In this document: one piece after another, positions 20,864 to 64,000 of the stretch
Numbering within the stretch: the first letter of the stretch is position 1
Layout: each line of letters begins with the position of its first letter
Origin: Crossaster papposus
Lineage: Eukaryota; Echinodermata; Asteroidea; Velatida; Solasteridae
DNA: 64,000 nt
Assembly: GCA_037893245.1 (NCBI GenBank)
Contig: JBAIAA010000097.1
Location: 744,001-808,000, forward strand
Direction of reading: 5' to 3'
Program-made: the position numbers and the translations under genes
The notes under the pieces: model-generated
What the model was told of the DNA's origin: nothing
Databases searched by the model: none
What the model saw: the letters and a program-made list of their open reading frames with translations, nothing else

Positions 20864-21110
20864 GGTATCCTAAACGATGCTTTCCGGTACGGCGACCACG
20901 TGGACCCGTACTACCAGTACTACCGGGACGGGCAACCAGTGTTGCGGAACGTTCAGCCGGACTTTGGAGGCGTCGAGGCGCGTCATCAGGAAGCACTCAA
21001 GCGAAGAGAGAAGAAGAAATTTCAAATCTATGGCACTATCGTGTTTTTGCTAGTCGTCATGGTTCTGCTGGCTATCGGGATGGGAATCTTTCTTGCCCTT
21101 TATTTCACAG
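20864..21110 (+). CDS. Exon: cytoplasmic tail and transmembrane anchor
   Basis: Acceptor ACTGCCAACAG before 20864, donor GTGCGG after 21110; phase 0 in, phase 1 out. It encodes about 82 residues: a tyrosine-rich tail ([10 protein letters not shown]), a basic stop (KRREKKKFQ), then a hydrophobic span of about 25 residues ([20 protein letters not shown]). Basic residues before the span predict N-inside topology, i.e. type II. There is no ATG at a suitable place, so at least one exon lies upstream. Confidence 0.82.

Positions 21111-64000: not shown

Follow-up and report, generated by a model that had tools for sequence, protein, structure and literature searches.

A candidate membrane polyprotease gene of Crossaster papposus with two serial CUB/LDLa/Frizzled/trypsin modules, the first carrying threonine at position 195

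Does a single gene of Crossaster papposus join two closely similar protease modules in one membrane-anchored chain, and would both proteases be able to cleave? The question is raised by a stretch of 64,000 nucleotides (hereafter the window; contig C97:744001–808000, forward strand) in an assembly of 1.02 Gb and 1,841 contigs. A preliminary description had read it as a mosaic gene with a membrane anchor, in which a SEA domain and a mucin stalk are followed by at least two CUB/LDLa/Frizzled/trypsin modules. Our reading, to which we assign a probability of roughly 0.6, is that one gene specifies a membrane protein at least 1,894 residues long, with two serial modules and a terminal CUB domain, in which the second module (B) would be trypsin-like and the first (A) nearly or fully inactive.

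Exon chain and domain content

Exons were identified by reading the forward-strand frames, by tblastn over 224 kb of the contig and from splice context. The resulting model comprises 26 exons between 20864 and 76180, with GT-AG boundaries at all 25 introns and 1,894 unbroken codons ending in a single terminal stop (Table 1). The splice sites were picked to fit the phase, so the phase agreement is partly built in and not fully independent. A tail and transmembrane (TM) exon is followed by three SEA exons, the PPTQ stalk, modules A and B with ten exons each, and the terminal CUB. Each module is composed of CUB, a four-cysteine LDLa-like exon, LDLa, the Frizzled CRD, trypsin in four exons, LDLa and EGF. 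All previously listed domains are thus present in the order given, with 20864, 55261 and 56038 as exon ends, and the mosaic forms one phase-compatible chain. This open chain, known from DNA, is the basis for placing two S1 domains on one polypeptide, and we infer that both modules share one transcript. The chain does occupy the span of 20864–64000 originally assigned to the gene, but the gene is larger and runs 12 kb beyond the window. A gene end inside the window was rejected in view of the exons reaching 76180, where the terminal CUB closes with an in-frame TAG (76178–76180), with AATAAA at 76247, about 67 bases further. Both LDLa exons expected before each Frizzled domain exist, but the first one in each module has only four cysteines.

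Table 1. Exons and duplication units of the gene, in window positions; entries marked as beyond the window continue on the same scale.
Feature	Position	Strand	Evidence or remark
Tail (KRREKKK), predicted cytoplasmic, and putative transmembrane exon	20864–21110	+	leaves in phase 1; C175 copy 63% identical, same CCAACAG acceptor
SEA 1 exon	30830–30933	+	Pfam SEA; C175 copy
SEA middle mini-exon	31814–31881	+	absent from the preliminary description; predicted from phase; C175 copy 64% identical
SEA 2 exon with GSVVA	33442–33635	+	Pfam SEA; C175 copy 70% identical
PPTQ mucin-like stalk exon, 12-bp repeat	33888–34838	+	P/T-rich exon at the same place in C175
Module A CUB	42811–43164	+	tblastn, exon model, Pfam
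Module A degenerate LDLa, four cysteines	43895–43993	+	C175 copy 73% identical
Module A LDLa	46158–46277	+	exon model, Pfam
Module A Frizzled CRD, ten conserved cysteines	48219–48551	+	Pfam Fz below cut-off; PDB profile; relatives
Module A trypsin exon 1 (propeptide Cys, R/IVGG cleavage site, His57)	49006–49201	+	Pfam
Module A trypsin exon 2 (Asp102)	50317–50579	+	Pfam
Module A trypsin exon 3 (Asp189)	50664–50806	+	exon model
Module A trypsin exon 4, GDTGGP, Thr at 195	52882–53035	+	splice context, motif search
Module A LDLa after protease	53272–53388	+	exon model, Pfam
Module A EGF	55154–55261	+	exon model, Pfam
Module B CUB	56038–56391	+	exon model, Pfam
Module B degenerate LDLa	57122–57220	+	exon model
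Module B LDLa	59386–59505	+	exon model, Pfam
Module B Frizzled CRD	61454–61786	+	exon model; Pfam Fz below cut-off
Module B trypsin exon 1	62240–62435	+	Pfam
Module B trypsin exon 2	63553–63815	+	Pfam
Module B trypsin exon 3	63890–64000 in window, continues to 64032	+	exon model
Module B trypsin exon 4, GDSGGP (beyond window)	65737–65890	+	exon model
Module B LDLa after protease (beyond window)	66125–66241	+	exon model
Module B EGF (beyond window)	75509–75616	+	exon model
Terminal CUB and stop (beyond window)	75834–76180	+	exon model
Tandem duplication unit 1 (module A)	42432–55617	+	self-comparison; end set by start of unit 2
Tandem duplication unit 2 (module B)	55618–64000, continues past window	+	self-comparison

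Two alternative junctions were discarded. The Frizzled donor GTGCGA was replaced by GTAAGC, which leaves the phase unchanged, and a direct connection of SEA 1 to SEA 2 failed because their phases disagree; a mini-exon was therefore sought and later found also in a paralogue on contig C175. Upstream of 20864, comparison of 20.9 kb here with 9.9 kb in C175 yielded no conserved start exon, only repeats and short chance matches. The window contains reverse-transcriptase or RNase H-like fragments at 10925–11974, 26444–26974 (one there below the Pfam cut-off) and 3126–3677, and another was recognised by eye at 69919–71018 on the same scale, within the long LDLa-EGF intron of module B. Diverged tandem and interspersed repeats lie at 28387–30300, where the frame 28387–28902 has no Pfam match. 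Elsewhere in the assembly, contig C8, 5.2 Mb or more in length, has the look of a bacterial chromosome from a symbiont or a contaminant: its COX1 frames are unbroken, and matches to bacterial 16S rRNA lie at 4238180 and 1591295. The COX1 on contig C1841 reads sensibly with AAA as Asn and ATA as Ile, and an ND4L-like frame and then COX2 come after it, in keeping with the mitochondrial code and gene order of echinoderms.

The spliced protein was searched against Pfam in three pieces with the mucin stalk left out. SEA scored 53.5 bits against a cut-off of 26.4 with the mini-exon included, and carries GSVVA, which we take to be a candidate G/S motif of the self-cleavage type. A PDB search with it found only weak SEA matches (best E 0.23), and the Pfam SEA model matched nowhere in the whole genome, which does not imply absence since SEA is split over exons here. 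Trypsin scored 191.2 bits in A and 191.8 bits in B over all 220 positions. LDLa (53.8 and 41.9 bits), EGF (25.4 and 29.2 bits) and CUB (44.5 bits in A; 113.8 bits in two stretches for B and the terminal CUB) all exceeded their cut-offs; Pfam counts two LDLa stretches per module versus three such exons. No SRCR domain was among the Pfam matches at E up to 1 in these pieces, and an NCBIfam search with module A returned no match. SRIVGG and GDCGRRP are present in both modules, and the best 60 of 430 PDB protease matches by sequence include plasma kallikrein, enteropeptidase, TMPRSS6 and plasminogen. The putative TM segment is a hydrophobic stretch following KRREKKK, judged by eye. In the LDLa that follows protease B, two positions close to the final cysteines carry N where A and C175 have D, and calcium binding might be weaker as a result.

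Both Frizzled copies in the window stay below the Pfam cut-off of 32.1 (23.1 bits in A and 23.3 in B; 28.7 for exon A alone). The assignment nevertheless appears sound, because all five relatives match the Fz model, one copy on contig C900 exceeds the cut-off at 39.4 bits, ten cysteines are invariant in the five relatives, and all 29 PDB matches of a five-sequence profile at E up to 0.1 are Frizzled chains.

Paralogues and the history of the two modules

Relatives outside the C. papposus genome were sought in the PDB only; within the genome, a paralogue on C175 contains all 16 exon types sought, in the same order on one strand over 33 kb, as a single module. Its front part consists of TM (806794), SEA 1 (813708), SEA middle (816211), SEA 2 (816696) and a P/T-rich exon starting with ASIEPPSVDG (817.3 kb), followed by CUB (819811), LDLa-like (821.4 kb), LDLa (822.2 kb) and Fz (829771) exons, trypsin exons 1–4 (832.0–837.1 kb), LDLa (838238), EGF (839295) and a terminal CUB (839545). 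The SEA mini-exon had been predicted from phase before its C175 copy turned up (E 1.4e-8 in 2.4 kb). We consider this paralogue to be independent sequence evidence for the exon chain. Its terminal CUB lacks a stop at the matching codon; the frame either meets GTAAGA or, if read further, reaches a stop within a few codons. Over 610 codons, dN is 0.139 for each module against C175, dS is 0.422 for A and 0.469 for B, and dN/dS is about 0.33 and 0.30, respectively; both modules evolve under purifying selection against C175.

The same paralogue bears on whether the locus might instead give two products, with transcripts ending after EGF_A or with an internal start near 55830 opening a second one. 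Read-through of EGF_A gives 11 residues and then a stop, AATAAA lies at 55817, and a frame that continues unspliced into CUB_B has ATGs at 55830, 55860 and 55893 and a weakly hydrophobic stretch. However, that stretch falls in another frame in copy A, as an intron would allow; EGF_A ends at GTAAGG, CUB_B follows CCCCAG, and the phases match. In C175, the EGF-CUB gap is about 130 bases with GTAAG and CAG ends, and the sole intervening ATG opens a frame that stops after 11 codons. Two separate products are thus quite unlikely. Splicing might also skip one cassette, so that single-module forms with Thr195 or Ser195, resembling the C175 protein, would replace or accompany the double form. Each module begins and ends in phase 1 as a symmetric cassette, joining EGF_A to CUB_C or the mucin exon to CUB_B keeps the frame, and C175 has a single module; we still regard such a choice between modules as unlikely, and favour the double form on one transcript.

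Copies A (42432–51904) and B (55618–65156) are 96% identical over 9.6 kb, which cannot be chance. Identity is about 95% just before 43.5 kb, 98–100% in all twelve 500-base bins between 43.5 and 49.5 kb and 94–100% in the next five, and drops to 83–91% at 52–53.5 kb. Further on, similarity is limited to the EGF exons, at 82% DNA identity, and to one patch of 126 bases at 72%. Synonymous divergence follows the same course: dS is 0.02 from CUB to trypsin exon 3, 0.03 in exon 4, 0.12 in the last LDLa and 0.77 in EGF. The simplest reading is probably that the entire CUB-to-EGF cassette was duplicated long ago and that gene conversion has recently acted on its front two thirds, with a second recent duplication in place of conversion as a close alternative. 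By amino acids, the EGF domains of A and B are 77% identical, compared with 66–68% to C175, and the synonymous distances over 35 codons are 0.44 (A-C175), 0.77 (A-B) and 1.38 (B-C175). Given this mixed placing, the cassette duplication may predate or postdate the split from C175. Between CUB and trypsin exon 3, A and B have 25 nonsynonymous and 7 synonymous differences, with no sign of selection between A and B alone, and their divergence is similar in exons (33 of 1508 sites) and introns (138 of 7889; p 0.25).

Such similarity could also arise if the assembly had laid two haplotypes end to end, creating a false second module. The twelve bins at 98–100% identity would fit this scenario. Genome searches found no separate second allele of the gene, as expected if both lay here, and echinoderms have high heterozygosity. 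Several other contig pairs (C201/C962, C167/C1079, C732/C1704, C346/C1491 and part of C148/C354) have equal or nearly equal scores, as from uncollapsed haplotypes. Against this, the fall in identity to 83–91% and the EGF dS of 0.77 are far beyond alleles, a single contig spans both copies, and C900 likewise has two modules, which makes an artefact very unlikely and a genuine duplication the preferred reading.

The C900 locus has two Fz-trypsin modules with Fz domains 55–59% identical to that of A, and weaker TM-, SEA- and CUB-like exons upstream as candidates for the same gene; a reading of 20 kb there showed no CUB between the two modules. In a tree of six trypsin domains, A and B group together at 83/81, with the other two inner forks open, and the C900 duplication may be independent. 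With two modules on C97, one on C175 and two Fz-trypsin modules on C900, the whole CUB-to-EGF cassette appears able to multiply within the gene family. More distant Fz, trypsin and CUB exons occur on C148 and C354. A tandem array at C354:699526–743075 holds nine full-length single-frame trypsin matches spaced 5.1–5.4 kb apart, several with identical scores, and many Frizzled exons, several with internal stops, cluster at C201:2715–33032 and C962:182377–225361.

Threonine at position 195 of the first protease

In the usual protease numbering, which we take to apply here, module B keeps His57, Asp102, Asp189 and Ser195, whereas module A keeps the first three and reads GDTGGP at the place of Ser195. 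The codons differ by a single base (GACACT versus GACAGT). Because C175 and both C900 domains have Ser, as does module B, Thr195 is a derived state as judged from these sequences. A strict degenerate motif search of the genome, whose pattern catches only part of the proteases, gave ten matches, nine with Ser and one, module A, with Thr.

Several working proteases per chain, as the preliminary description had proposed, are difficult to reconcile with this substitution: according to PMC8695361, S195T strongly impairs both thrombin and trypsin, and Thr at 195 is undocumented in any protease of the family. In PMC11172050, Thr195 occurs naturally in 21 of 125 beetle protease homologues, which are taken as partly or wholly inactive. 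Module A is therefore best read as a pseudo-protease or a very weak protease, and it seems likelier that each chain combines an active protease with one that is probably near-dead than that several are active. Both domains could yet be active if the Thr codon were a base error or a private allele: one base suffices, domain A is otherwise intact, and it changes no faster, with 15 derived amino-acid changes against 13 in B (p 0.85; counts that leave out 9 of the 37 A/B differences, not polarisable by C175). Since there is no excess of derived changes, and exons and introns of A and B diverge alike, module A does not look like a decaying domain. The Thr codon, however, is the base in the assembly, its exon lies amid introns that distinguish A from B, so that a mix-up is unlikely, and the beetle homologues show the residue to be natural. 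Activity of both domains is accordingly unlikely, and the pairing of a probable pseudo-protease with a trypsin-like twin remains our preferred reading.

Possible working and relation to known proteases

The protein would adopt a type II membrane orientation, on a SEA-nicked, O-glycosylated stalk presenting the ligand-binding modules and a trypsin-like protease. If each module is cut at R/IVGG, the resulting chains might be held by a disulfide through the propeptide cysteine. The earlier suggestion of disulfide tethering is plausible in that the propeptide Cys (GDCGRRP) and the Cys in QPACLE are kept in each module; we presume that these two pair. Soluble release through SEA self-cleavage, also suggested, is doubtful: the SEA halves of matriptase are described as staying non-covalently joined, shedding needing another cut (PMC5567652), and release would similarly require a further cut here. 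Module B would act as the trypsin-like protease, and module A, nearly or fully inactive, might bind a substrate or partner or restrain B; a substrate-binding or modulating role is what PMC11172050 proposes for the homologue domains in polyserases. Ligands, perhaps Wnt-related, might be chosen by the CUB, LDLa and Frizzled modules. A fuller but doubtful version is that a derived Thr195 pseudo-protease module, coupled to a near-identical active copy behind Frizzled/CUB/LDLa and gene-converted over the front two thirds, lets the gene make its own cofactor or decoy, possibly with a choice of forms by skipping symmetric modules.

If true, the product would be a membrane polyprotease that carries Wnt-receptor-like CRDs and unites a protease with its close pseudo-protease copy on one chain, an arrangement in which the role of a pseudo-protease beside its active twin could be tested directly. 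None of the titles and abstract starts listed in searches of the open-access literature describes the whole architecture, and the term GDTGGP retrieved no open-access papers. The parts are ordinary animal extracellular modules, and the surprise lies in the arrangement. MFRP (membrane frizzled-related protein) shares TM, CUB, LDLa and Frizzled modules with the present protein but is not known to have a protease domain. TTSPs are described with a C-terminal protease domain (PMC10376093), whereas here, as in C175, LDLa, EGF and CUB come after each protease. Because the protease is internal, we do not file the protein as a canonical TTSP, though it may work like one; it would resemble a membrane-bound polyserase. 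Corin likewise has an N-terminal TM and Frizzled and LDLa domains before a trypsin-like domain, but is laid out in PMC10376093 with two Fz, eight LDLa, an SRCR and a C-terminal protease, in place of the SEA, mucin, CUB, EGF and doubled internal protease seen here; of the Frizzled, LDLa and SRCR stem of its subgroup, SRCR was not found in our Pfam matches. Matriptase and matriptase-2 (TMPRSS6, among our PDB matches) share TM, SEA, CUB, LDLa and trypsin, with a single C-terminal protease and neither Frizzled nor EGF in the published layout (PMC10376093); compared with that subgroup's SEA/CUB/LDLa stem and C-terminal protease, the protease here is internal, and Fz and EGF are added. Mixtures of S1 domains with such modules are not new as such, since membrane protease homologues with SEA or Frizzled plus LDL, EGF and SRCR are mentioned in a paper on beetles (PMC11172050). 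Nudel-type insect polypeptidases share a membrane-anchored LDLa/protease/LDLa/protease-homologue array with one altered catalytic domain, although their printed layout has no Frizzled or CUB (PMC11172050). Polyserases carry several S1 domains per chain, as the present protein would, and polyserase-1 is membrane-bound with LDLa, but Frizzled, CUB, SEA domain and EGF do not feature in their descriptions in PMC1435904. The same paper describes polyserase-2 as active in its first domain alone, whereas here it is the first domain that has lost its nucleophile.
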